DNA from: Phycisphaerales bacterium
GTDB lineage: Bacteria > Planctomycetota > Phycisphaerae > Tepidisphaerales > Tepidisphaeraceae
Assembly: GCA_020853095.1 (NCBI GenBank)
Contig: JADYZN010000069.1
Location: 1 to 32,052, forward strand
Length of the DNA: 32,052 bases
Direction: 5' to 3'
Part shown: one piece after another, positions 5,119 through 28,311 of the stretch
Layout: the number at the start of each line of letters is the position of its first letter
Numbering within the stretch: the first letter of the stretch is position 1
Made by a program: the position numbers and the translations under genes
Notes under the pieces: generated by a model
Told to the model about the DNA's origin: nothing
The model's database searches: none
Seen by the model: the letters and a program-made list of their open reading frames with translations, nothing else

Positions 5119-5147
5119 CTTTGCAGTCGCCTCAAGGAGGAGCTGCG

Positions 5148-7175
5148 ATGAACCAGACCACACCATCTCCAACCTTTGATGACCTGATCGACCAGGAATG
5201 GCTGGCCGTCAATCACATTGGAGGCTATGCCTCCTCCACCCCCATCGGACTCAATACGCGCAAATACCACGGCCTGCTGGTCGCCTCGATGCTGCCGCCG
5301 GTGCGACGAATGGTCATTTTGTCGCGGGTCGAGGAGACCGTTCATCGCGAAGGGTGGCCTTATGCCCTCTCCTGCAACGAATATCCGGACACCATCCACC
5401 CCGAAGGCCATCGCCTGCTGAAGGCGTTCGACGCTTATCCGTATCCCCGCTGGGCTTATCAGGCGGAAGGCTGGACGCTGCAAAAGGAATTGCGGCTGCT
5501 TCGCGGCCACAACACCGTCTGTTTGACCTACACGCTGCTGGCCAGCGACAAACCCATCGAGCTGGAACTGCGCCCCCTGTTCGCGCTGCGCATCATTCAC
5601 GAACTGATGTACCAGTGGAACGGCCAGCTCGACGCCCTGCCGGCCGGCAAAAACCAATATCGCATCCCACCCACCTCCCACACCCCCGAAGTCTTTTTCG
5701 CCCACGAGGGTGATTTTGACCCCCAGGGCCACTGGTATCTGAACACGATCTATCGGCGCGAGCAGGAACGCGGCTATGGCGGCCTCGAAGACCTCTGGAT
5801 GCCCGGCACCGCGCGCTGGACGATCCAGCCGGGACAAAGCGTCCACTTCGTCTGCTCCACCGAGCCGATCGACCTGCCGCGCGTGCTTCATAAGCTCGAC
5901 CATCAATACGCGGTGGCCTCAAGCCCGCCGGGTCTTTCGCACAACACCGAACTCGATTCGCTGATTCGCGCCGCCGACCAGTTTGTCGCCTTTGGCCGCG
6001 ACCATTCCACCACGCTGCTGAGCGGCTATCCCTGGGCGGCGGTCTCGGTGCGCGAATCCCTGATCGCCTTCCCCGGTTTGCTCCTGGTGAGCGGACGGCT
6101 CAACGAAGCACGCAGTTTCCTGCAAACCCTGGCCGGCCAGCTTCGCAACGGCCTGCTCCCCTCCTGTTTCCCACTGGCGGCCGGCCCGCTGCGATATGAA
6201 TCGGCCGATACTTCGCTCTGGTTTGTTCACGCGGTCTATCAGTATCTGAGATATGGCGGGGATGAATCGTTTGTGCTGCGGACGCTTTGGCCGGCGTTGG
6301 AACAAATCATCGAATCCCATCTGGCCGGCACGGACCTTGGCATTCGTATCGCCGCCAATGGACTGTTGTCCAGCCACCATGCCGGCGTCCCATCCACCTG
6401 GATGAACGCCTGCGTGGGCGATTGGGTGGTCACACCGCGGTATGGACAGCCGATTGAGCTTAACGCATTGTGGTACAACGCTTTATGTATCATGTCCGAA
6501 TTGGCCGCGCGGCTGGGTCGAACCACTCTGGCCGAACGGTTGACCGGCCATGCCCGGCAACTGCATGAAGCGTTTAACGCCCGTTTCTGGAACGAGGCCG
6601 CCGGCTGCTGCTACGACGTGATCGACGAACAAGGACGCGATGTTTCGGTCCGGCCCAACCAGTTGCTGGCGATGAGTTTGCCTTTCGCGGTGCTCGAATT
6701 GAACCGCCACGAGGCGGTCCTGCGCAAAATCACCGATGAATTATTAACACCCTTCGGCCTGCGCAGTCTGTCTCCAAGGGATCACGCCTACCAAGGCCGA
6801 TATGGAGGCGATCTGCTCTCCCGCGATCGGGCGTATCATCAGGGAAGCGCCTACCCTTGGCTGCTGGGGCCGTACATCACCGCGACCTTGCGGCTCAATG
6901 GCCGAAGCGCCGCCACCCGAAAACAGGCCGGCCAGATTCTGGCTCCGCTGCTTCAATCCATGCCCGGCCGCTTTGGCCTGATCCCCGAATTGTTCGATGG
7001 CGATGCCCCCCACCACCCCGGCGGGCTTGTGGCATCGGCCATCTCCACCGCCGAACTGTTTCGCGCCTACGCCGAAGACATCCTGGACTTAAACCCCGAC
7101 CATCCTTCGTTCAATTCCACCCACCGCATCCCCGTCGCCACAATCATTCTGCAAAACATCCCCAACCTGCCCTGA
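5148..7175 (+). CDS. Glycogen-debranching-enzyme homologue (GH133, amylo-alpha-1,6-glucosidase-like) with altered catalytic motifs
   Basis: A 675-residue cytoplasmic protein with the bacterial debranching N-domain (residues about 15-260; signature HIGGYASSTPIGLNTRKYHG) and the (alpha/alpha)6 C-domain (about 270-665). Active members remove the alpha-1,6-linked glucose stub from glycogen limit dextrins. Several hallmark positions differ. The usual WGRD reads SVRE (Glu303). The usual TWMDA reads TWMNA (Asn420, codon AAC at 6405-6407). The usual QAWS near the C-terminus reads ASAIS. The neighbouring TPRYGQPIELNALWYNAL and PELFDGDAP are normal, so the gene is not decaying. It may be a regulatory or glycan-binding pseudoenzyme or have changed specificity. 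The start follows AAGGAGG at ideal spacing. A sugar kinase gene follows after 12 bp. Confidence 0.85.
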   Translation: MNQTTPSPTFDDLIDQEWLAVNHIGGYASSTPIGLNTRKYHGLLVASMLPPVRRMVILSRVEETVHREGWPYALSCNEYPDTIHPEGHRLLKAFDAYPYPRWAYQAEGWTLQKELRLLRGHNTVCLTYTLLASDKPIELELRPLFALRIIHELMYQWNGQLDALPAGKNQYRIPPTSHTPEVFFAHEGDFDPQGHWYLNTIYRREQERGYGGLEDLWMPGTARWTIQPGQSVHFVCSTEPIDLPRVLHKLDHQYAVASSPPGLSHNTELDSLIRAADQFVAFGRDHSTTLLSGYPWAAVSVRESLIAFPGLLLVSGRLNEARSFLQTLAGQLRNGLLPSCFPLAAGPLRYESADTSLWFVHAVYQYLRYGGDESFVLRTLWPALEQIIESHLAGTDLGIRIAANGLLSSHHAGVPSTWMNACVGDWVVTPRYGQPIELNALWYNALCIMSELAARLGRTTLAERLTGHARQLHEAFNARFWNEAAGCCYDVIDEQGRDVSVRPNQLLAMSLPFAVLELNRHEAVLRKITDELLTPFGLRSLSPRDHAYQGRYGGDLLSRDRAYHQGSAYPWLLGPYITATLRLNGRSAATRKQAGQILAPLLQSMPGRFGLIPELFDGDAPHHPGGLVASAISTAELFRAYAEDILDLNPDHPSFNSTHRIPVATIILQNIPNLP

Positions 7176-7187
7176 TCGGATCGGCCT

Positions 7188-8489
7188 GTGTCATTGCTCG
7201 CCCTTGATTTCGGTTCCTCCTCGATCAAAGCCGCGATTTTGCAGGGAACCAGCATCGTCGGTGAACGCGCCCGCGCCGCCTATCTCACCCACTACGATGG
7301 CCCCCGCGCAGAGGTCCATCCCGACGACCTGTTGCAGGCGCTCCAAAATGCCTTGCGCCAGCTTGGTGGCCGGATTCGCCAGGTGGATGCCATCGCGCTG
7401 TCCACCATGTCCCCCGCGTGGGTGGCGATGGATCGGCATGGCAAGGCATTGACGCCGATCGTAACCCACCAGGATCGACGCAGCGTTGATATCGCCCGCG
7501 AGATGGAAAAACGTTTTGGCCGACGCCGATTGTTGCGCTGTTCGGGCAATCGCCCCATCCCCGGCGGAATCAGCTCGACAACCTGTGCGTGGTTCGCGAA
7601 ACATCATCCGTCGATCTTGCGCAAGTCCAATCTGATCGGACACTTAAATACGTTTTTGCACCGGCAACTTGCCGATGGAAGGGTGATTGATCCATCCAAT
7701 GCCTCCTTTACGGGATTGTATCAAACCGTTCGACTGGGGGGTTGGAGCGATGAATTGTGCGAGTTGGCCGGTGTTCGACCTGAACAACTGCCCGACATCC
7801 TGGACGCCGACAAAATTGGTGGAACCATCACCCCCGCCGCCGCACGGGCATTTGGCCTGAAAGCCGGCACGCCGATGCTGGTCGGGCTGGTGGATACCAG
7901 CGCCGCCATGCTGTTGACCAACCCCCATCCGGGCAGTTTGATGAACGCCTGCGGATCGACGGATGTGCTGGCGTTGTGCACCGATCATCCCCGCCCGCAC
8001 GATCAACTATTGACCCGCGGGCTGGGGGTTGGACGGCTGTGGATGGCGGTCGGGACAATCGCGGCGGCCGGCTCGTCGTTGACCTGGGCACAAAAACAAT
8101 TCTTCCCCGACTTATCTGACAAACAATTTTTCGGCCTTTTAAGCCGGTTGATCCGTTCCAAACAGTGCGATGGGAGCGTGAATTTTGAGCCTTATCTGGC
8201 CGGCGACCGCAATACCCTCGAACAACGCCAGGCTTCGTTCACCGGCCTGACCCTCGCCACCACACGCGACCAGATGTTGCTGGCGATCGCCCGGTCCCTG
8301 GCCAAGGCCAGCGCCGATCGTCTGCCTTTGCTCGAAAAACTGTACGGGCGTTTGAAACCGCACATCACCCTCACCGGCGGCGCGGACAAGGCCCTGCATC
8401 ATCTCCTGCACCACGATTGGCCCGATCGGTTCCAATTCCACCGCATCTCGGATGCCACGATGCGCGGATTGGGAAAATTGATTTCGTAA
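7188..8489 (+). CDS. FGGY-family carbohydrate kinase
   Basis: A 433-residue ATP-dependent sugar kinase of the FGGY family (xylulokinase, gluconate kinase and relatives). The N-terminal phosphate-binding motif LALDFGSSSIKAAIL (residues 4-18) and the second-domain motif LVGLVDTSAAML followed by MNACGSTDVLAL (about 225-260) are clear, with the catalytic Asp in GLVD. A C-terminal adenosine-motif-like LTGGADKALHHLL lies at about 395-407. The protein is 50-80 residues shorter than typical xylulokinases, mostly in the second half, and the substrate cannot be told. The start is GTG at 7188, 12 bp after the GH133-like gene, so the two are probably co-transcribed. It converges with the minus-strand gene ending at 8491. 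Confidence 0.85.
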   Translation: MSLLALDFGSSSIKAAILQGTSIVGERARAAYLTHYDGPRAEVHPDDLLQALQNALRQLGGRIRQVDAIALSTMSPAWVAMDRHGKALTPIVTHQDRRSVDIAREMEKRFGRRRLLRCSGNRPIPGGISSTTCAWFAKHHPSILRKSNLIGHLNTFLHRQLADGRVIDPSNASFTGLYQTVRLGGWSDELCELAGVRPEQLPDILDADKIGGTITPAAARAFGLKAGTPMLVGLVDTSAAMLLTNPHPGSLMNACGSTDVLALCTDHPRPHDQLLTRGLGVGRLWMAVGTIAAAGSSLTWAQKQFFPDLSDKQFFGLLSRLIRSKQCDGSVNFEPYLAGDRNTLEQRQASFTGLTLATTRDQMLLAIARSLAKASADRLPLLEKLYGRLKPHITLTGGADKALHHLLHHDWPDRFQFHRISDATMRGLGKLIS

Positions 8490-9140: not shown

Positions 9141-11096
9141 ATGGAACGTTATCGACCCGCGCCAATGACCACAAGTGTAGACCCATCCTATCGTTACATC
9201 CTGGAACCCGAGGCGCCCTATCTGCGTAACCTGGCGGCGTTGTGGGCGGTGGACCCGGAATTGGCACGGCAAATCGAGGCCATCGACGAATCTTACGCGA
9301 TCGAACCCGCCAAATCGGGCGAGCCAACCGTCGCCCTCACCAGCCCGGCCGGCCGGAAAATTTATCTCCACAGCCGCCATCAACCGCTCGATGAAGCTCA
9401 AAAACTGATCGAGCCGATGGATGCCACCCGGTGCATGGCGTTTCACGTCCACGGATTCGGTCTGGGTTATCACGTTGAGCAACTTTTCGACAAAATCAGC
9501 CGCGAAGGAATCATCGCCATCCTCGAACCGGACCTCCGCCTGTTGCGGACGGCCTTTGAACATCGCGACCTGTCCCGGCTGATCGAATCCAAGCGGATTT
9601 ATTTCTTTTGCGAGCCGAACAAAACCCAGTTGCTGATCAAACTGACCTCCTGGGCGGCGATGTTCACGATGGGATTCGCGAAAATCGAACACGCCCCCAG
9701 CGTGCAGGCCCGCCCCGATTTTTATGCGTCGATGCAGGGGTGGATCGACGATTTTCTGGCGTATTGCCGCACCAACATGAACACGCTGGTGCTCAATGGC
9801 AAACGAACCGCGGAGAACCTGGCGCGCAACATCGGCTGGTACGCCGCCACGCCGGGACTGGGCCGGCTGGCCGGGCGATACAAGGGAATGCCGGCCATCA
9901 TCGTGTCGGCCGGGCCGTCGCTGCGAAAAAACAAACATCTGCTCAAAGGGCTGGAAAACCGGGCGGTCATCATCGCGGTGCAGACGACGTTGCAGCCATT
10001 GCTGGAGATGGGCGTCGAGCCGCATTTTGTCACCTCGCTGGACTATCACGAGATCTGCACGCGGTTTTTTGAAAAATTGCCGACGACGTTGCGCACCGAA
10101 CTGGTGGCCGAGCCGAAGGCGGCCAGCGCCATCTTCAACATGATGCCCGGACCGATCACGCTGCTGGGCAACGAATATTGCGAACAGTTGCTGCTCGAGA
10201 TGCAGCCCCGGCGACCGCGACTGAACGCCGGGGCCACGGTGGCCCATCTGGCCTATTATCTGGCCGAGCATCTTCAGTGCGATCCGATCGCCTTCGTGGG
10301 ACAGGATTTGGGGTTCAGCGACGGGTTGTGCTATACGCCGGGAACCAGTTACGAAGAGGTCTGGCGCCCTGAATTGTCGAGATTTTACACCACCGAAATG
10401 AAGCAGTGGGAGCAGATCGTGCGCGACCGCCCGATCCTGCGGCGGATACCCGATCAGCAGGGTCGCCCGATGTACACCGAGGAGCGGCTGTTCACCTATC
10501 TTCAGCAATTTGAGAAGGATTTCGCGGCCGCGCCAGGCACGATCATCGACGCCAGCGAAGGGGGCGCGCTGAAGCGCGGGGCGAAAATCATGAACCTGGC
10601 CGACGTGATCGAGCAATACTGCGACCGGCCGGTGCAACGGCTGGAAGATCATCCCGGCCAGGACTGGAACACGCTTGGGCGGTGCATCTCCAGCATCCAG
10701 CAGCGTCGATCCGAAGCCGCGCAGGTGGGCGACATCGCCCGACATACGCTGCCGCTTCTTGAAGACATCCGCGACCACGTTCACGACCAGCAACGGGTCA
10801 ACCGCACCATCGCACGGATCGACCAATTGCGGGCGAAAATGAACGACCTGGGGCATTGCTACGAGCTGATCTCGCAGTTGATGCAGAACACCGAGCTGGA
10901 TCGATTCCAGCAGGATCGCAAAATCGAAGCCGAAAAGGTGGAGGGAATCGAACGGCAGCGCCGGCAGGTTCAGCGGGATGTGGACAACGTGCGCGGCGTG
11001 ATCGAGGCATCGGGCGAATTCGTGAAGCTGATGGATGATGTGCTGGCCCGGCTGGACGAGATGCAAAATCGCCATCCGATCGGGAGGGCGGCATGA
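9141..11096 (+). CDS. Maf/DUF115-family motility-associated glycosyltransferase-like protein
   Basis: A 651-residue protein of the DUF115/MAF_flag10 (MptE-like) family. Maf proteins in Campylobacter, Helicobacter and Aeromonas transfer nonulosonic acids such as pseudaminic acid to flagellin. Residues 50-220 are the family N-terminal region (AFHVHGFGLGYHVEQLF, IAILEPDLRLLRTAF). The core at about 245-430 contains the nucleotide-binding-like IIVSAGPSLRKNKHLLKGL, HFVTSLDYHE and the diagnostic FVGQDLGFSDGLCYTPGT. Residues 560-640 form a coiled coil. The downstream CMP-sugar synthetase and NeuB genes support a nonulosonic-acid role. No Shine-Dalgarno is seen before either ATG (9141 or 9165); the downstream one, eight codons later, is equally possible. 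The stop overlaps the next ATG by 4 bp. Confidence 0.88.
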   Translation: MERYRPAPMTTSVDPSYRYILEPEAPYLRNLAALWAVDPELARQIEAIDESYAIEPAKSGEPTVALTSPAGRKIYLHSRHQPLDEAQKLIEPMDATRCMAFHVHGFGLGYHVEQLFDKISREGIIAILEPDLRLLRTAFEHRDLSRLIESKRIYFFCEPNKTQLLIKLTSWAAMFTMGFAKIEHAPSVQARPDFYASMQGWIDDFLAYCRTNMNTLVLNGKRTAENLARNIGWYAATPGLGRLAGRYKGMPAIIVSAGPSLRKNKHLLKGLENRAVIIAVQTTLQPLLEMGVEPHFVTSLDYHEICTRFFEKLPTTLRTELVAEPKAASAIFNMMPGPITLLGNEYCEQLLLEMQPRRPRLNAGATVAHLAYYLAEHLQCDPIAFVGQDLGFSDGLCYTPGTSYEEVWRPELSRFYTTEMKQWEQIVRDRPILRRIPDQQGRPMYTEERLFTYLQQFEKDFAAAPGTIIDASEGGALKRGAKIMNLADVIEQYCDRPVQRLEDHPGQDWNTLGRCISSIQQRRSEAAQVGDIARHTLPLLEDIRDHVHDQQRVNRTIARIDQLRAKMNDLGHCYELISQLMQNTELDRFQQDRKIEAEKVEGIERQRRQVQRDVDNVRGVIEASGEFVKLMDDVLARLDEMQNRHPIGRAA

Positions 11097-12709
11097 ACAA
11101 CGTCACCGCGCTGCTCTCTCTTTTGCACGAACCGGCCGACCGGAACAGCGCCACGCGGTTGTTTCGATCCGAACCGGTGCTGTCCTGGACGCTCAGCCGG
11201 CTGGAACGATGCCAGCTTCTGGGGAGCGTCGCGATCCTCTGCTGGGAAGATCAGTTGCCGGCGGTTCGCCCCATCGCCGAACAAGCGTGCGCGTATATCC
11301 TGGCCAAAGGCCCCCGACACAACATCCCGTCCATGGAAGCGATCGCCGCCGGCCGGCGCTGGACCGATGGCTGGCGCGGCGGATTGGCCGGTGCGTGCGA
11401 TTTTGACCTGGGATTCCACGCGACATGGGTCGATGAGGTGATCGGCCAGGCGGGCAGCGATGCGGTGGTGCTGGTTCATCCGGCCGCCGCGCTGGTCGAT
11501 CCCATGCTGGTGGATGGCCTGATCGCCCACGCCAAATCCCATCCGGCCGTCGAGTTGTGCTTTTCACAAGCCGCCGCCGGATTGTCCGGCACGTTGCTGA
11601 AACCCGCGCTGGTGCGAAAATTGTCGGCGGCCGGCGTTCATCCGGGCCGGTTGCTGCACTATCAGCCCGATCATCCGGTGCGCGACCAGATCAGCGGAGA
11701 AGAATGCGCCCCGGTTCCGATGCGGGTGGCACGCACAATCCACCATTTCAAACTCGACACCGACCGGCAGATTCAGCGCATCACCGCCGCCATGCGGTGT
11801 TTCAACGGCCAGTTGATCCGCACCGAGGCCGAGCATCTGGTGCAACAGATGGAATCGACGCCAAGGGTCGATTCGCTGCCGCGAGAAGTGACCGTTGAAT
11901 TGACCTGCCGGCGGGCCACCCGGCCGATTTATCGTCCATCAACCCATTTGAAGCTCGACCGGGCGGACATGACGTTGGACATGGCCCGACGCATTTTCGA
12001 CCAGTTGGCGGCGGCCGATGACATGCGATTGACCTTGGCCGGCGCGGGCGACCCGTTGCTGGCCGGCGACTCGATGGCGATTGTTCGCGCCGCGGCCGAA
12101 GCGGGCATCAAGGCCATCCACGTTGAAACCGACCTGATGGGACTGGATGTGGAATGGGTCCGGATGCTGGGCGCTGTCCCGATCGACGTTTTGTCGGTTC
12201 ACCTCCCCGCCATCACGCCCGCCACCTATGCGGCCATGATGGGCATCGACGCGATTGGACAGGTCATCAACAACGTCCGATTGCTGCTGGAATCGCGACA
12301 ACAACACAACCGGGGCGTGCCGCTGGTCGTGCCGACGTTCATCAAATGCCGGCAAAACCTCGCGGAGATGGAACCGTGGTACGACCAGTGGCTCAAGGCG
12401 CTGGGATCGGCCGTGATCGCAGGCCCCGGTGATTATGCGGGGCAAATTCCGAACCTGGCCGTGGCTGAAATGGCTCCGCCCAAACGTCGTCCCTGCTTCC
12501 GGTTGAATCAACGGATGATGATCTTGAGCGATGGAAGCGCCATCGCGTGCGAGGAAGATGTGCTGGGAAGCGCATCGTTGGGGAACGTCGAAAACGAATC
12601 GGTGGCCCGGTTGTGGAGAAAACTCGATCCAATGCGCGCCGACCACCAATCCGGCCAATGGGGCCGGCATTCTTTGTGCGCAAACTGCAGCCAGTGGCAT
12701 CGACCCTAA
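11093..12709 (+). CDS. Nucleotidyltransferase-like domain fused to a radical-SAM/SPASM-like domain lacking the CxxxCxxC motif
   Basis: A 538-residue two-part protein. Residues 1-270 resemble a degenerate sugar-nucleotide transferase (SpsF/NeuA-like fold: SATRLFRSEPVLSWTLSRL), without an intact GxGxR loop. Residues 285-460 follow the radical-SAM barrel (VTVELTCRRATRP, then MRLTLAGAGDPLLAGDS, then AIHVETDLMGLD), but the CxxxCxxC that binds the catalytic 4Fe-4S cluster is absent and only one Cys remains there. The C-terminus is SPASM-like: CFRLNQRMMILSDGSAIACEED, a GN element, and LCANC at the end. It could bind one auxiliary cluster or none. It is coupled to the Maf gene (ATGA) and followed after 15 bp by the CMP-sugar synthetase, so it should serve the same glycan pathway, perhaps as a scaffold or non-radical enzyme. 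Confidence 0.8.
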   Translation: MNNVTALLSLLHEPADRNSATRLFRSEPVLSWTLSRLERCQLLGSVAILCWEDQLPAVRPIAEQACAYILAKGPRHNIPSMEAIAAGRRWTDGWRGGLAGACDFDLGFHATWVDEVIGQAGSDAVVLVHPAAALVDPMLVDGLIAHAKSHPAVELCFSQAAAGLSGTLLKPALVRKLSAAGVHPGRLLHYQPDHPVRDQISGEECAPVPMRVARTIHHFKLDTDRQIQRITAAMRCFNGQLIRTEAEHLVQQMESTPRVDSLPREVTVELTCRRATRPIYRPSTHLKLDRADMTLDMARRIFDQLAAADDMRLTLAGAGDPLLAGDSMAIVRAAAEAGIKAIHVETDLMGLDVEWVRMLGAVPIDVLSVHLPAITPATYAAMMGIDAIGQVINNVRLLLESRQQHNRGVPLVVPTFIKCRQNLAEMEPWYDQWLKALGSAVIAGPGDYAGQIPNLAVAEMAPPKRRPCFRLNQRMMILSDGSAIACEEDVLGSASLGNVENESVARLWRKLDPMRADHQSGQWGRHSLCANCSQWHRP

Positions 12710-12724
12710 ACACAAGGAGAAACC

Positions 12725-13459
12725 ATGAGCCAACCAAACATACTGGGCATCATTCTGGCGCGGGGCGGCAGCACCGGCCTGCCGGGAAAACACCTGCTGA
12801 ACCTGCTGGGACAGCCGGTGATTCGATACACCTTCGACCATGCCCGCGCCGCACGGCTGTTGACCCAGACCATCGTCACCAGCGACTGTCCCAAAATCCT
12901 CCGTTACGCGCGGGAGCAGGGGTTCCAGACCGTCGCCCGTCCGGCCGAACTGGCCACCGCGGACGCCTCGGTGCAGGACACGATGCTGCACGCGATGCAC
13001 GCCCATGAACGCGGCACCGGATTTCACGCCGACGGGCTGGTGGTGCTGTACGGCAACGTGCCGGCGCGGGGCGATGGGGTCATCGACCAGGGAATCCGCA
13101 TGTTGATCGACACCGGCTGCGACTCGGTGCGAAGCTGGTGCCCGGTCGGCAAATGGCACCCCAACTGGATGGCCAGTCTCGAAGGAGACAAGGTCGTCTC
13201 GCTGCATCCCAACAGTATCCACCGCCGGCAGGATTTGACGCCGCTGTTCCTGCACGATGGCGCGGTCGTCGCCGTCAGCCGGTCTTCGATGCTGCGGGGA
13301 GAGCAATTCCCCGGCGATCCGCACGCCTTTTTCGGCGTGGATCGGCGCGGGTTCCCGACGCAGGTCGGCGAAACGGTCGAGGTGGATCAGCTTCGCGACC
13401 TGTATTGGGCCGAAGCGGTGTTGCGCGAAAAACAATCCTTACAGAAAAAGGTGGCCTGA
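12725..13459 (+). CDS. CMP-nonulosonate cytidylyltransferase (NeuA/PseF/LegF-type)
   Basis: A 244-residue cytoplasmic enzyme expected to activate a nonulosonic acid with CTP. The N-terminal nucleotide loop reads LARGGSTGLPGKHLLNLLG (residues 12-30), close to the family ARGGSKGIPGKN pattern but with Thr for Lys and His for Asn. The later GETVEVDQLRDLYWAEAV (about 216-233) is the usual metal/substrate region with VD..D. The segment where most family members have QPTSPxR reads LYGNVPARG (about 107-115), so it belongs to a divergent subgroup. The ATG follows AAGGAGA with good spacing. The stop overlaps the NeuB-type start (TGATG), indicating translational coupling and a joint role in making CMP-activated sugar for the Maf protein. 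Confidence 0.87.
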   Translation: MSQPNILGIILARGGSTGLPGKHLLNLLGQPVIRYTFDHARAARLLTQTIVTSDCPKILRYAREQGFQTVARPAELATADASVQDTMLHAMHAHERGTGFHADGLVVLYGNVPARGDGVIDQGIRMLIDTGCDSVRSWCPVGKWHPNWMASLEGDKVVSLHPNSIHRRQDLTPLFLHDGAVVAVSRSSMLRGEQFPGDPHAFFGVDRRGFPTQVGETVEVDQLRDLYWAEAVLREKQSLQKKVA

Positions 13460-14511
13460 TGAGCACGATAACCCTTGGCAATCGGCCGGTCGGCCGCGAC
13501 CACGAAGCGCTGGTGATCGCCGAGATCGGCGTCAATCACGATGGCTCGGTCGAGCGGGCGCTGGAACTGGTCAACGTCGCCAAAGAAGCCGGCGCGGACG
13601 CCGCCAAATTGCAGATTTTCACGGCCGAACGTCTGATGCACCGCAGCTCCCGTTTCGCCGATTATCAAAAAGACCGCTGCGCCGAGGCCGACCCGGTGGC
13701 GATGCTTCGCCGCTATGAATTGCCGCGCAAAGGACTTGAACGCATCTGCGCCGCCATGCGCCAGGCGGGCTTGTTGCCGCTGGCGACGCCGTTTTCACCC
13801 GAAGAAGTGGACGTCATCGAGGAGCTGGACCTGCCGGCGATCAAGATCGCCTCGCCGGACCTGGTCAACCGGCCGCTGCTTCAACGGGCCGCCCAAACCG
13901 GCAAACCGCTGTTGATCTCCACCGGCGCCGCGACGATGGATGAAATCGCCCTCACCGCCGGCTGGCTGGCCGAATGGAAGGCGCCCTTCGCCCTGCTGCA
14001 TTGCGTCAGCAGCTATCCCACCCCTGCCGAACAGGCGAATTTGTGCTGGATCGGCGAGTTGGCCGCCCGATTCGATGCGCCGATCGGTTATTCCGATCAC
14101 ACCACCGAGCCGTGGGCCGGCGCCCTGGCCGTGGCCGCCGGCGCGAGCCTCATCGAAAAACACCTGACCTACGACCGCGCCGCCCAAGGCCCCGATCATT
14201 CGGCCAGCAGCGACCCGGCCCAGTTCGCCCAATACGTCTGGATGATCCGCGGCGCCCAACGACTTCGCGGAACCGTCGGTAAACACGTCCTGGAGATCGA
14301 AAACGACGTCCGGCAGGTCAGCCGGCAAAGCCTCGTCCTGCGCACCGAATTGCGCAAGGGACAGGTCCTGCGCGAACACCACCTGACCGTGCAACGCCCC
14401 GGAACCGGCATCCCGGCCGCACAAATCCAGCAGGCCATCGGCCGCAAACTCCGCCGTTCCCTGGACGCCGGCGACATGCTCCAGTGGGACATGCTCTCGG
14501 ATGCCGCCTGA
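13459..14511 (+). CDS. N-acylneuraminate-9-phosphate/pseudaminate-type synthase (NeuB family)
   Basis: A 350-residue PEP-dependent aldolase-like synthase that condenses phosphoenolpyruvate with an amino-hexose to give a nonulosonic acid. Residues 15-285 are the TIM-barrel NeuB domain, with IAEIGVNHDGSVERA, AAKLQIF, PLATPFSPEEVDVIEEL, IKIASPDL, GYSDHT and IEKHLTYDRAAQGPDHSAS all clear. Residues about 290-350 are the C-terminal SAF (antifreeze-like) domain with RSLVLRTELRKGQ-type sequence and RPGTGIPAAQI. Sequence alone does not separate sialic, legionaminic and pseudaminic acid synthases. The genes for UDP-sugar precursors are not in the window. The start ATG shares a base with the preceding stop, and this is the last gene of the 9141-14511 operon. 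Confidence 0.92.
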   Translation: MSTITLGNRPVGRDHEALVIAEIGVNHDGSVERALELVNVAKEAGADAAKLQIFTAERLMHRSSRFADYQKDRCAEADPVAMLRRYELPRKGLERICAAMRQAGLLPLATPFSPEEVDVIEELDLPAIKIASPDLVNRPLLQRAAQTGKPLLISTGAATMDEIALTAGWLAEWKAPFALLHCVSSYPTPAEQANLCWIGELAARFDAPIGYSDHTTEPWAGALAVAAGASLIEKHLTYDRAAQGPDHSASSDPAQFAQYVWMIRGAQRLRGTVGKHVLEIENDVRQVSRQSLVLRTELRKGQVLREHHLTVQRPGTGIPAAQIQQAIGRKLRRSLDAGDMLQWDMLSDAA

Positions 14512-22669: not shown

Positions 22670-25150
22670 ATGCCCCGTGACATTCCCATCGGCAATGGCA
22701 GCTTTCTGCTGACGTTTGACCGCCAATACCAGATTCGCGACGTTTATTTCCCCCACGTCGGCCAGGAAAACCACGGCGGCGGCGGGCCGTGCCGATTTGG
22801 CGTCCACAGCGACGTTCCCGGCAAATCCAAATCCCGCCTCTGCTGGAGCGGCGATTCAGGCTGGCAGATTCGCCAGCGCTATCTGCGCGACACGCTGACC
22901 ACCAGCGTCAGCCTCGACCATCGTGAGATGCGTCTGTCGATGTATTGCAACGACGTGGTGGACTTTCATCGGCCCATCATGGTCCGCAAGATCAAGCTGA
23001 AAAACCTGGCCGAACACGACCGCGTGGTGAAACTGATGCACCACCAGGATTTCAACATGTTCGGCACCAAGATCGGCGACACGGCCTATTTTGATCCGGA
23101 CCTGCGATCGATCATCCATTACCGCGCCAAGCGATACATCCTGGTGTCGTTTTTCTGCAATGGCGAGCAGCGCATCGACGAATACGCCACCGGCACCAGC
23201 GGTTTCCAAGGGGCCGAGGGAACCTGGCGGGATGCCGAGGATGGCCACCTGCAGGGCAACGCCATCGCGCAGGGCGCGGTGGATTCGACGATCTCCCATC
23301 ACGTTCACCTGGGGCCTGAAGGGGAGCGCACGGTCTACATGGTGATGATCGCCGGCGAATCGCGAGAAGAATTGATCGAACAGCACAAATGGCTGGTGAA
23401 GACCGGCCCGCAGGGGGTGATCGACCGCACCACCAGCTACTGGCGGTTGTGGGTGGGCGGGATGAACATCAACTTCGGCAACCTGCCGGCCAAGGTCGTT
23501 GATTTGTTCAAACGGTCCTTGCTGGTCATCCGCACGCAAATCGACAACGGCGGCGCAATCATCGCCGCCAACGATTCGGACATCATGCAGTTTTCGCGCG
23601 ACACGTATTCGTACATGTGGCCGCGGGATGGGGCGCTGGTGGCCAACGCGCTGGACCTGGCGGGATTCTCCGATACGGCGCGATGGTTCTACACCTTCTG
23701 CAAAAACGTCATCACGGATGAAGGATACTTTTATCACAAGTACAACCCCGATGGTTCCCCCGCATCAAGCTGGCATCCGTGGGTCCTAAAGGGTCAGCGC
23801 GCCATGCCGATCCAGGAGGATGAGACGGCGCTGGTGGTCTGGTCGCTGTGGCGGCACTATTACCGATATCGCGACATCGAATTCGTCCGACCGCTCTGGG
23901 TTGATCTTGTTCAAAAGGCGGCCGACTTCATGGTCAAATACCGCGACCCGGCCACCGGACTGCCGCTGCCCAGTTATGACCTGTGGGAGGAGCGATGGGG
24001 GATTCACGCCTTCACCGTGGCGACGGTGTATGGCGGCCTGAAGGCGGCGCGCAATTTCGCGGTCTGTTTTGGCGACCGCCAGCGGGCGGAAATTTACAAT
24101 CGCGCCGCCGAGGAAATCAAAGAAGGGGCGGCCAAATATCTTTTCAACAAACGACTGAACCGGTTCGTCCGGCGGCTGGTCCCGCGCGACAACCCTACAC
24201 CGGCGGATGATGCGCAGTACGTGGAAAACGTGCCGTTGCGGTCCGATCCGGCCACGGAGGATCTGTTCGAGGTGGATGAAGTGATCGATGCCTCGCTGTA
24301 CGCGATCTATAAATTTCATCTGTTCGAGGCGGATGATCCGCGCGTCGAATCGACGATGCGGACGGTGGAGGACAATCTGTGGGTCAAGACGCGCGTCGGA
24401 GGCGTGGCGCGATACGAAAACGACTATTACCACCGCATCAGCGACGATCTTCAGGCGGTTCCGGGCAACCCGTGGTTCATCTGCACGCTGTGGCTTGCGG
24501 ATTATTACATCACCCGCGCCAAGACGCCGGCCGAATTGAAACTGGCGCTGCCGATCTTTGAATGGGCCGCCAATCACGCGCTGGATTCGGGCGTGCTGGC
24601 CGAGCAGGTCAATCCGTACACCAACGAGCCGATCTCCGTCAGCCCGCTCACCTGGTCGCACGCCACGGTGGTCAGCACGGCCATCAAGTACCTGGAAAAA
24701 CTGGAACAACTGCAAACGTGCGGCGCGTGCAACCAGCCGATCTTCCGCATGCGCCGGCCGGGACCGGCGGAATTGCGCTCACACGTTCATTTTGACCAGT
24801 TTGAAGCCGAATTTGAGCTGCACGAAAACCGCGACCTGTGCTCCTCAATGGGAAAATTCAGCCGCGAAGACCCCCGGACCGGCCGCAGGCAAAACGTCAC
24901 GCTCGCCATCGACACCCGCGACTGCATCGGCTGCGACGTCTGCGTCGCCCATTGCGCCAAGGGCGTGTTGAAAATGATCGACGGCAAGGCCCTGATCGAC
25001 CTGCGACAGATCAACCAGTGCGACATGGATGGAGAATGCGTCGAGGTCTGCCCCACCGACGTGGTCTCGCTGATCGTTCAATCCGAACCCCCCGTCGACC
25101 ACGAGCCGGCCGCCGGCCAGTCCGAGCAAAACGTCGTGGGCGTCGGATAA
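22670..25150 (+). CDS. GH15 glucoamylase-family protein fused to a C-terminal two-cluster ferredoxin domain
   Basis: An 826-residue cytoplasmic protein with no signal peptide. Residues 1-260 are the beta-rich N-domain of prokaryotic glucoamylases (IGNGSFLLTFDRQYQIRDVY). Residues 275-680 are the (alpha/alpha)6 catalytic domain, with MWPRDG (316-321), the acid Glu440 in DLWEER and the base Glu645 in LAEQVNPYT, followed by PLTWSHA. The hydrolase therefore looks active on alpha-1,4-glucans. A linker has a CxxC pair (Cys684, Cys687). Residues 745-800 form a dicluster ferredoxin: Cys752, 755, 758, 762, then Cys784-xx-Asp787-xx-Cys790-xxx-Cys794-Pro. Asp replaces one ligand. The frame is continuous, with no start signal at the junction. 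GGAG lies four bases before the ATG. I know of no such fusion. Confidence 0.9.
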   Translation: MPRDIPIGNGSFLLTFDRQYQIRDVYFPHVGQENHGGGGPCRFGVHSDVPGKSKSRLCWSGDSGWQIRQRYLRDTLTTSVSLDHREMRLSMYCNDVVDFHRPIMVRKIKLKNLAEHDRVVKLMHHQDFNMFGTKIGDTAYFDPDLRSIIHYRAKRYILVSFFCNGEQRIDEYATGTSGFQGAEGTWRDAEDGHLQGNAIAQGAVDSTISHHVHLGPEGERTVYMVMIAGESREELIEQHKWLVKTGPQGVIDRTTSYWRLWVGGMNINFGNLPAKVVDLFKRSLLVIRTQIDNGGAIIAANDSDIMQFSRDTYSYMWPRDGALVANALDLAGFSDTARWFYTFCKNVITDEGYFYHKYNPDGSPASSWHPWVLKGQRAMPIQEDETALVVWSLWRHYYRYRDIEFVRPLWVDLVQKAADFMVKYRDPATGLPLPSYDLWEERWGIHAFTVATVYGGLKAARNFAVCFGDRQRAEIYNRAAEEIKEGAAKYLFNKRLNRFVRRLVPRDNPTPADDAQYVENVPLRSDPATEDLFEVDEVIDASLYAIYKFHLFEADDPRVESTMRTVEDNLWVKTRVGGVARYENDYYHRISDDLQAVPGNPWFICTLWLADYYITRAKTPAELKLALPIFEWAANHALDSGVLAEQVNPYTNEPISVSPLTWSHATVVSTAIKYLEKLEQLQTCGACNQPIFRMRRPGPAELRSHVHFDQFEAEFELHENRDLCSSMGKFSREDPRTGRRQNVTLAIDTRDCIGCDVCVAHCAKGVLKMIDGKALIDLRQINQCDMDGECVEVCPTDVVSLIVQSEPPVDHEPAAGQSEQNVVGVG

Positions 25151-25165
25151 AAACCGTCCCGGCGA

Positions 25166-26233
25166 TTACCGCGTCAAAAACTCCACCGCTTCCTCAACGC
25201 TCGAAAAGATCTTCGTGGCGGTCTCGGTGATGAAAGGCGACGGGGTGGCGCCGCACGTCCAGACGATGTAGACCTCCTTGGCATTTTCGTACGCATGTTG
25301 CAATTCGCGCTCGACGCCCGATGAGAGCGCCGGCTTGCCGTTTGGAAGTTGCGGCACCAGCGAGATGATCATGTCGGACTGGTCGATCATCTTGAAATCG
25401 CGCGCATAGGTCTGGCCCATGATGTCGCCGCAAATCTGGGTCACATCCTGCGTCTTGAGCGCCAGCGGACCTTCCGGGCCGTCGGCCAGCAACGTCGTCT
25501 GCCCCTCCTGCAACGCCTTGAGCGCCAGCGTATGCAGCAGCAGCTCATCCACATCCGATGGATCAAAGCAGATCAGATGCTGGTTCATCGCCTTTTTGAA
25601 ATCGTCGATCTGTTTGAGGATGTCCGGCTGGTCCATCACGTGCGACATCGGAAACGACAAATAGGCCTTCCTGCGCGTCGATTCAAACAGCAGCCGAAAG
25701 ATGGTCCGGGTGGTCAACTCGTGCCGTCCCCGCGAGAGCATGAAAAAATGCCCCCAGCCGCGCAAAATTTTCGCCAGGATCTCGGTGGCCAGCATCTCCT
25801 CTTCGCGCCACACCATGATGTCCTTGAGCGTGTGGTCGATGTCATGGTCGCGCATCAGCCGTTGATGTACCGATTCGACGTTGTCCACCAGCGTCAGATA
25901 CACGTCCGCGTTGAACGCCTTGATCTGGTCGAAATCAAACGCCGAAAACAGACCATGCCGCCAGCGAAACGTCGCGTGGGTGTTCACCAGGACGTGCTCG
26001 TGCTGATCGGCGAACCGCAAAATCTCCTTGAACACCGCCCGCCGCAGCGCGTTGAGCCGGTTGATCGGCAAATTGAGAATCCGCCCCGCCGGAACGTCCG
26101 GCGCTTCGGCGTACATCATTTTCCCCACGTGGCACACGTGCAGATCGTGCCCGGCCGCCCGCGCCATCTGACGCACCGCCTCCAGGTACGGCCCCTTGTC
26201 CACGCCAACTTGTCCGGTCAAAATCGCCCGCAT
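25166..26233 (-). CDS. P-loop kinase-like protein with C-terminal nucleoside 2-deoxyribosyltransferase-like domain
   Basis: A 355-residue cytoplasmic protein. The N-terminus has an adenylate-kinase-like P-loop variant, TGQVGVDKG (residues 6-14), where Asp replaces the usual Gly before Lys. Typical NMP-kinase-like features follow (ILNLPINRLNALRRAVF, VLVNTHATFRWRHG, VYLTLVDNVESVHQRLM). After about residue 185 comes a second domain of nucleoside 2-deoxyribosyltransferase-like (Rossmann) type, ending with MIDQSDMIISLVPQLPNGKP, SSGVERELQHAYENAKEVYIV and FSSVEEAVEFL. The combination suggests nucleotide recognition or salvage, but no substrate can be assigned. I start at the ATG at 26233, seven bases after GAGAG; a GTG two codons upstream is possible. 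TATAAT on the minus strand (26273-26268) is a likely -10. It converges with the GH15 gene, 15 bp apart. Confidence 0.72.
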   Translation of the reverse strand: MRAILTGQVGVDKGPYLEAVRQMARAAGHDLHVCHVGKMMYAEAPDVPAGRILNLPINRLNALRRAVFKEILRFADQHEHVLVNTHATFRWRHGLFSAFDFDQIKAFNADVYLTLVDNVESVHQRLMRDHDIDHTLKDIMVWREEEMLATEILAKILRGWGHFFMLSRGRHELTTRTIFRLLFESTRRKAYLSFPMSHVMDQPDILKQIDDFKKAMNQHLICFDPSDVDELLLHTLALKALQEGQTTLLADGPEGPLALKTQDVTQICGDIMGQTYARDFKMIDQSDMIISLVPQLPNGKPALSSGVERELQHAYENAKEVYIVWTCGATPSPFITETATKIFSSVEEAVEFLTR

Positions 26234-26310
26234 CGCCACACTCTCATGGAATCATCGCCCCATGTCCATTATACGTCGCCAATCACCAATCCTCCGAAAC
26301 CGATTATTGC

Positions 26311-26915: not shown

Positions 26916-26952
26916 CTTAGGTGATTTGGTTATCTACCCAAGGAGAAGGCCA

Positions 26953-28311
26953 ATGTCGCCTGTAGTGATCAAGAGTGTGACAGACATCAGCAGCGGCGAT
27001 ACCGCCTGGATGCTGACCAGCGCAGCGCTGGTATTGATGATGACCGCGCCGGGGTTGGCGCTGTTTTACGGCGGGCTGGTCCGTCAGAAAAACGTGCTGG
27101 CGACGATGATGCAGAGTTTGATGCTCATGGCGGTGGTCAGCATCGTCTGGGCATTGGTCGGATACAGCCTGGCGTTCGACGTTGGCACGCCGGTGATCGG
27201 CGGGCTGCGGTTTGCCTTTATGCGCGAGGTGGGGGCGGCCCCATGCGAATACGCCCCAACCATCCCTCACACCGCATGGATGGTCTATCAGCTCATGTTC
27301 GCGATCATCACCCCGGCCCTGATCTGCGGGGCGTATGCCGAGCGGATGAAATTCAGTTCGATGCTGATTTTTTCGATTCTTTGGCTTTTGGGAGTTTATT
27401 GCCCGATGGCGCACATGGTCTGGGGCAAGGGTGGATTGTTCAACGCCTTCGCCGGCACGCCCGGCATGAACATCCCCGCGCTCGATTTCGCGGGTGGGAC
27501 GGTGGTGCATGTCAGTTCGGGCGTGTCCGCGCTGGTCTGCGCGGTGGTGCTGGGCCGTCGGCGGGGGCTTGGAAATGGGCCGATCCCGCCGCATTGCCTG
27601 GTGTTGTCGGTCATCGGTGCGGGGTTGCTGTGGGTCGGTTGGTTTGGATTTAACGCCGGCAGCGCCCTGTCGGCCGGCGGATTGGCCGCCAGCGCCTTCG
27701 TGGCCACGCATTTCGCGGCGTCGGCGGGTGCGATCGGCTGGGTGGCGATGGAATGGATCAAAACCGGCAAGGCGACCGTTTTGGGCGCGATCTCCGGCGC
27801 GGTGGCCGGCCTGGTGGTCATCACGCCCGCCAGCGGATTTACCACGGGCATGTACGGCATGTTGATGGGTCTGATCGGCGGCATCGCCTGCTACTGGGCG
27901 GCCACCGCACTGAAATCGAAGCTGGGGTACGACGATGCCCTGGATGCGTTTGGCGTCCACGGCGTCGGCGGAACGGTTGGGGCGCTGCTGACGGGCATCT
28001 TCGCGGTCGCGGCGATCAACGGTAAAAGCGGCTGGATCGAAGGCAACCGCGCCCAGTTCGTGGATCAGTTGACCGCGACCGGCGTGACCTGCCTGGTGGC
28101 CATCGTCGGTTCGCTGGTGCTGCTGAAAGTCACGGACTGGATTTGCAACGGCCTGCGGGTGGACGAGATGCAGGAAATCGAAGGCCTGGATCGCAGCCTG
28201 CATGGTGAGGCGGGTTATGAAATGGATGAGGCTGGTGAATCGGCGAGTCTGGCCGAAGAACCGACCTCAGCCACGGCCGAGGCCGCGATGGCTTTCTCGG
28301 CGGCTTCCTGA
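26953..28311 (+). CDS. amt: Ammonium transporter, Amt/Rh family
   Basis: A 452-residue inner-membrane channel that takes up ammonium. About eleven membrane helices are apparent, opening directly with the first helix after an N-terminus of about 18 residues (WMLTSAALVLMMTAPGLALF). The conserved pore set is present: Asp178 in LDFAGGTVVH, the twin His pair His186 and His336 (DAFGVHGVGGTVGALLTG), and GWFGFNAGSAL. ICGAYAERMKF is also typical. After the last helix comes a cytoplasmic tail of about 55 residues, acidic and Ala/Ser-rich at the end; this region normally interacts with PII protein. AGGAGAAGG precedes the ATG, which I prefer to an earlier in-frame reading through the promoter. No glnK/glnB gene is adjacent. 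A sigma-54 promoter lies just upstream. Confidence 0.96.
   Translation: MSPVVIKSVTDISSGDTAWMLTSAALVLMMTAPGLALFYGGLVRQKNVLATMMQSLMLMAVVSIVWALVGYSLAFDVGTPVIGGLRFAFMREVGAAPCEYAPTIPHTAWMVYQLMFAIITPALICGAYAERMKFSSMLIFSILWLLGVYCPMAHMVWGKGGLFNAFAGTPGMNIPALDFAGGTVVHVSSGVSALVCAVVLGRRRGLGNGPIPPHCLVLSVIGAGLLWVGWFGFNAGSALSAGGLAASAFVATHFAASAGAIGWVAMEWIKTGKATVLGAISGAVAGLVVITPASGFTTGMYGMLMGLIGGIACYWAATALKSKLGYDDALDAFGVHGVGGTVGALLTGIFAVAAINGKSGWIEGNRAQFVDQLTATGVTCLVAIVGSLVLLKVTDWICNGLRVDEMQEIEGLDRSLHGEAGYEMDEAGESASLAEEPTSATAEAAMAFSAAS

Follow-up and report, generated by a model that had tools for sequence, protein, structure and literature searches.

A conserved fusion of a GH15 glucoamylase-type hydrolase with a ferredoxin domain in Planctomycetota and its possible role in glycogen breakdown

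Known systems and the fused gene

The inverting hydrolysis catalyzed by enzymes of family GH15 relies on two carboxylates and requires no electrons. To our knowledge, no polysaccharide hydrolase that uses iron–sulfur clusters is known. Clusters do occur in other redox-neutral enzymes: in the DNA glycosylases MutY/Nth and in Bacillus glutamine-PRPP amidotransferase they have been proposed to serve as structural elements or as control points for O2 or redox state, in folds and on substrates unrelated to those considered here, so that the comparison is one of analogy only. Dicluster ferredoxins and polyferredoxins (9sfi; MvhB in 9sw6) as well as the Pyrococcus-type ferredoxins (2z8q, 1siz) share their Fer4 motifs with the protein of this study; they are, however, stand-alone electron carriers, whereas its domain is joined to a hydrolase.

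That protein is encoded in a 32,052-nucleotide stretch of DNA, hereafter the window, from a bacterium of the Phycisphaerales (family Tepidisphaeraceae; contig JADYZN010000069.1). Judged by sequence, its architecture is almost certainly that of an intracellular-type GH15 glucoamylase extended by a C-terminal ferredoxin domain (Table 1). Both modules are already known; a search covering the open-access literature returned no description of their fusion. The initial annotation had read the gene as one uninterrupted frame that retains both catalytic glutamates (440, 645) and carries the motifs CxxCxxCxxxC (752–762) and CxxDxxCxxxCP (784–794). The frame is indeed continuous over 826 codons, the two glutamates align with Glu438 and Glu636 of 1lf6, which we take to be the catalytic pair of T. 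thermosaccharolyticum glucoamylase, and both motifs lie exactly where they had been placed.

Table 1. Features of the fused gene, in window coordinates with residue numbers of the encoded protein
Feature	Position	Strand	Basis
GH15–ferredoxin fusion gene	22670..25150	+	Single ORF, ATG start, 826 aa; Pfam/NCBIfam matches; fusion shared by 15 genomes of this family
N-terminal β-sandwich region, ~residues 1–265	22670..23464	+	Strand-rich AF2 model, pLDDT mostly >85; within TIGR01577 match
GH15 (α/α)6 catalytic domain, ~residues 274–672	23489..24685	+	PF00723 290–670; Foldseek 1lf6
WPRD 317–320, presumed substrate-site motif	23618..23629	+	Invariant in fused proteins except L021
Glu440, predicted general acid	23987..23989	+	Aligns with 1lf6 Glu438; kept in all but L021
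Glu645, predicted general base	24602..24604	+	Aligns with 1lf6 Glu636; invariant in fused proteins
Linker 673–739 with CxxC knuckle (C684, C687)	24686..24886	+	Full-length homology among the fused proteins of the three groups
Ferredoxin domain, residues 740–805	24887..25084	+	Fer4 dicluster matches; profile against PDB ferredoxins/polyferredoxins; AF2 block pLDDT 85–94
Motif 1, C752-C755-C758-C762	24923..24955	+	C752, C755, C758 invariant (48/48); C762 absent in anammox
Motif 2, C784-D787-C790-C794P	25019..25051	+	C794 invariant; position 787 is D in 12, N in 3, C in 6, other in 27

Membership in family GH15 is seen in the profile match (PF00723, Glyco_hydro_15, residues 290–670, E 1.3e-26, 93.9 bits against a cut-off of 22), in the (α/α)6 fold and in the presence of both catalytic glutamates. 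The oligosaccharide amylase model TIGR01577 matches over nearly the full length (residues 13–673, E 1.9e-100), but the score of 337 bits is well below the equivalog cut-off of 820.7. The nearest solved structure is that of the bacterial glucoamylase 1lf6 (Foldseek, E 1.6e-27), which has the same combination of β-sandwich and (α/α)6 fold; it differs in lacking a ferredoxin domain and shares only ∼19% identity with the window protein. The full-length AF2 model, built on a 71-row alignment, reached a pLDDT of 85.3 and a pTM of 0.87, and its ferredoxin region (block means 85–94) shows strands and helices in the order typical for ferredoxins; the domain modelled by itself gave a poor result (pTM 0.34) and was left unused. 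The catalytic pair together with WPRD, to which we assign a substrate-site role from general knowledge of GH15, is retained in 47 of 48 fused proteins, which points to a working hydrolase under selection. The fusion gene is the sole GH15 gene found in the window's genome. Because the protein starts with MPRDIP and without a signal-like stretch, it is likely to reside in the cytoplasm.

Cluster ligands of the ferredoxin domain

Several Fer4 dicluster models match residues 746–800 with E-values of 3e-5 to 1e-4, each just below its Pfam cut-off, and a family profile of the domain matches polyferredoxins and ferredoxins of the PDB with E-values down to 1.5e-22. The eight cysteines of a dicluster (2[4Fe-4S]) ferredoxin are not complete in the window protein, where position 787 is Asp. 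We assume canonical ferredoxin topology, in which C752, C755, C758 and C794 would bind one cluster and C762, C784, residue 787 and C790 the other. When 48 distinct fused proteins are compared on this basis, the first ligand set is invariant throughout (48/48). The second is all-Cys in six sequences, which are those of a second Phycisphaerae family (f11) and L021, a divergent copy considered below; in the window's own family (f1) it consists of three Cys with Asp (12 proteins) or Asn (3); and in the anammox-type proteins it is wholly lost (27/27), its positions being occupied by a gap, Trp, a variable residue and Phe. Loss of the ligands of one cluster together with retention of exactly those of the other represents strong sequence evidence for bound clusters, and the pattern is likely that of bound Fe-S as opposed to stray cysteines. 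The conserved unit would thus probably be a single [4Fe-4S] cluster, the second site being dispensable. The Fer4 segment is clearly under purifying selection, as judged from a comparison of the two nearest genomes (dN 0.068, dS 1.09).

The same comparison bears on the earlier emphasis on an Asp-ligated, Pyrococcus-like cluster. Conservation gives no support to Asp787 as a cluster ligand, nor to a Pyrococcus-type site with a conserved Asp at the second ligand position, since the residue varies between Asp (12) and Asn (3) within f1 and is Cys in f11. Given this variation and the missing second cluster in anammox, the core function cannot lie in unusual behaviour of the Pyrococcus type, and redox chemistry specific to Asp was rejected in that role. 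In the alignment, Asp787 has the character of a lineage-specific change at the dispensable second site. The Asp motif is moreover not unique to the window protein, as the polyferredoxin of known structure 9sfi has CDLDGAC.

Spread, history and gene neighbourhoods

The complete fusion is present in 14 genomes of the window's family, including its own, the others showing ∼66–94% identity to the window protein; a class-wide search added one further genome (G153), which brings f1 to 15. In the rest of that family, one genome (G017) has the gene without ferredoxin domain, six lack the gene and several loci end at a contig edge. The class-wide search also revealed the fusion in f11, the other families of Phycisphaerae having GH15 alone. 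Within f68, a family of anammox bacteria, 27 of 33 genomes hold a fused copy, and many hold an unfused GH15 paralogue besides, which suggests that the fused form probably has a role of its own. Among named records, the fusion occurs in Brocadia, Kuenenia and Scalindua, and the window's kin are found among MAGs of Phycisphaerales/Tepidisphaeraceae; unfused homologues of anammox bacteria and Nitrospirota stand at ∼50% identity. Metagenome assemblies make up the bulk of these genomes, as an artefact of assembly or annotation would have it, but the fusion recurs in more than 40 distinct assemblies and in single-contig genomes (G013 of f1, at 7.2 Mb; G501, G381, G538 and G529 of anammox bacteria). 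The artefact was rejected on these grounds, its probability being negligible. What the initial annotation took for a real fusion is one, given its spread over f1, f11 and anammox bacteria, and not two genes joined by sequencing.

A tree of the GH15 part alone rejects the fused proteins as one clade (AU test, p 1.6e-5), with unfused Phycisphaeraceae nested beside the window's family. The linker is informative on this point: a profile of the f11 linkers matches those of anammox bacteria (median 70 bits) and of the window's family (44–52 bits) over most or all of its length, and unfused proteins over its first ∼29 positions only; the latter terminate shortly past the CxxC knuckle. As the linker is homologous across the three groups, we prefer a scenario in which the domain was gained once and later lost in Phycisphaeraceae, G017 and L096 to one in which it was gained several times, and the sequence data support a fusion that is ancient and conserved. 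Locus L096 (3736–5799; labelled Nitrospinota) falls inside the anammox clade and encodes an anammox-type protein minus its ferredoxin domain, with the downstream kinase kept, hence a natural deletion. In L021 (1501–3714; genome G039), all eight Cys are intact, the WPRD segment is deleted, and Glu440 and Glu441 are lost (WEE to WRR), so that the product is likely a pseudoenzyme. The gene type is absent from two other genomes of the L021 family; L021, though a single sequence, gives a hint that the ferredoxin part may persist once hydrolytic function is gone.

Gene context is consistent with glycogen as the setting of the enzyme, as had been proposed initially, and as its probable substrate. A glycogen debranching enzyme directly follows the fused gene in 5/5 f11 loci, and every f1 genome searched encodes a GT3 glycogen synthase (16/16) and a debranching enzyme (16/16). 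Matches to debranching enzyme within the GH15 frame in f11 were discarded as an overlapping-frame artefact of the ORF chosen in L049. GT5 glycogen synthase (GlgA) was found in none of the 25 genomes searched, f1 included; the GT3 enzyme of f1 (G000–G015) is of the eukaryote type, and a long GlgP-type phosphorylase occurs in G004, G008 and G013 only. The window itself encodes a debranching enzyme (GDE_N and GDE_C; 5121–7175, + strand), one of two in the genome, followed by an FGGY sugar kinase (7188–8489).

At the fused gene of the window's family, no conserved operon and no conserved redox neighbour were found. Anammox bacteria display a conserved same-strand cluster in which a hybrid kinase (Tll0287/HAMP/HisKA/HATPase/REC/REC) lies downstream at 18 fused loci, at 14 of them directly adjacent (within ∼25 bp or overlapping); CxxCH was present in 5/5 kinases checked, and rubrerythrin is encoded just upstream at nine loci. 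Receiver proteins accompany the c-haem Cache (Tll0287) hybrid histidine kinase at L067, L070, L085, L092, L100 and other anammox loci. Domains of the Tll0287 type carry c-type haem, and those joined to signalling modules have properties of NO sensors (PMC12889525, preprint). The arrangement of kinase and hydrolase could possibly constitute an operon for signalling from NO to the carbon store.

Elsewhere in the window, genes for an MptE/Maf-like glycosyltransferase, a SPASM radical SAM protein and PseF-like and NeuB-like proteins (9141–14511, + strand) likely form a nonulosonic-acid glycosylation cluster. Convergent to the fused gene is a frame (25166–26239, − strand) with an adenylate-kinase-like (AAA_17) N-terminus and a weakly nucleoside deoxyribosyltransferase-like C-terminus. 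A 428-aa frame (26917–28203, − strand) without Pfam/NCBIfam match is perhaps no gene, because the opposite strand carries an overlapping 470-aa frame.

Possible roles of the cluster

Since hydrolysis by GH15 uses no electrons, the cluster would have to be regulatory, docking or structural; and since close homologues in Phycisphaeraceae and G017 do without the ferredoxin domain, it is not needed for hydrolysis as such. We place the probability that a cluster responsive to redox state, NO or O2 regulates glycogen hydrolysis by the GH15 enzyme at roughly 0.45. The protein would then be a cytoplasmic exo-α-glucan hydrolase of the glucoamylase/oligosaccharide-amylase type, active in glycogen breakdown, whose C-terminal domain may function as a regulatory redox switch. 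Its essential element would be one [4Fe-4S] cluster on C752, C755, C758 and C794, and the second site of the window's family (three Cys plus Asp/Asn) might hold a [3Fe-4S] or a labile [4Fe-4S] cluster. By reporting reduced ferredoxin, O2/ROS or NO, the cluster could alter activity, stability or partner binding, such that glycogen is mobilised as energy or redox state demands. Redox gating of glycogen breakdown had been raised in the initial annotation, and it stays the leading idea. The anammox operon with its haem sensor, a line of evidence independent of that annotation, argues for the link to redox and NO; it counts against regulation that the sensor operon is seen in anammox bacteria only and not at the window's own gene. 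Doubtful, at lower odds, is the wider proposition that throughout Planctomycetota the redox/O2/NO state of the built-in Fe-S cluster switches glycogen hydrolysis directly, in anammox bacteria together with a kinase operon sensing NO or redox state through haem, which would make the enzyme the first Fe-S-regulated glycoside hydrolase.

The ferredoxin domain might instead attach the enzyme to a complex for electron transfer or to a ferredoxin-dependent sugar-oxidizing enzyme, with glucose channelled and electrons perhaps passing between the partners while hydrolysis remains untouched. By profile the domain is a normal ferredoxin, and the two POR_N-family proteins encoded in the window's genome make a ferredoxin pool plausible. 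We nonetheless consider docking unlikely: none of the three groups shows a recurrent linkage of the fused gene with an oxidoreductase gene, three f1 genomes (G006, G013, G015) have the complete fusion but no POR_N match, and the single cluster kept in anammox proteins argues against a multi-cluster wire. A role in stabilising or dimerising the hydrolase, without redox function, is rather unlikely as well. For the clusters of some DNA glycosylases a structural role has been argued, and here the cluster domain sits beside an otherwise complete enzyme, which exists in homologues without the domain, and the second cluster can be lost; those same unfused homologues, however, indicate a fold stable without the domain, and the anammox operon pairs the fused gene with a redox/NO sensor. 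Far less probable is a protein that is mainly ferredoxin or sensor, its GH15 part reduced to a glycogen-binding anchor, as the eight Cys of L021 beside its lost glutamates and WPRD segment might suggest; L021 is one sequence, and the other 47 fused proteins keep their catalytic residues.

Among anammox bacteria, storage of glycogen has been described and NO is a central intermediate. The existing proteins form a natural series (two full clusters; one cluster and an altered one; one; none) in which the role of each cluster is testable. The conserved fusion, if regulatory as we favour, would tie the redox or NO state of the cell directly to the use of its carbon store in environmentally important bacteria, anammox bacteria included.
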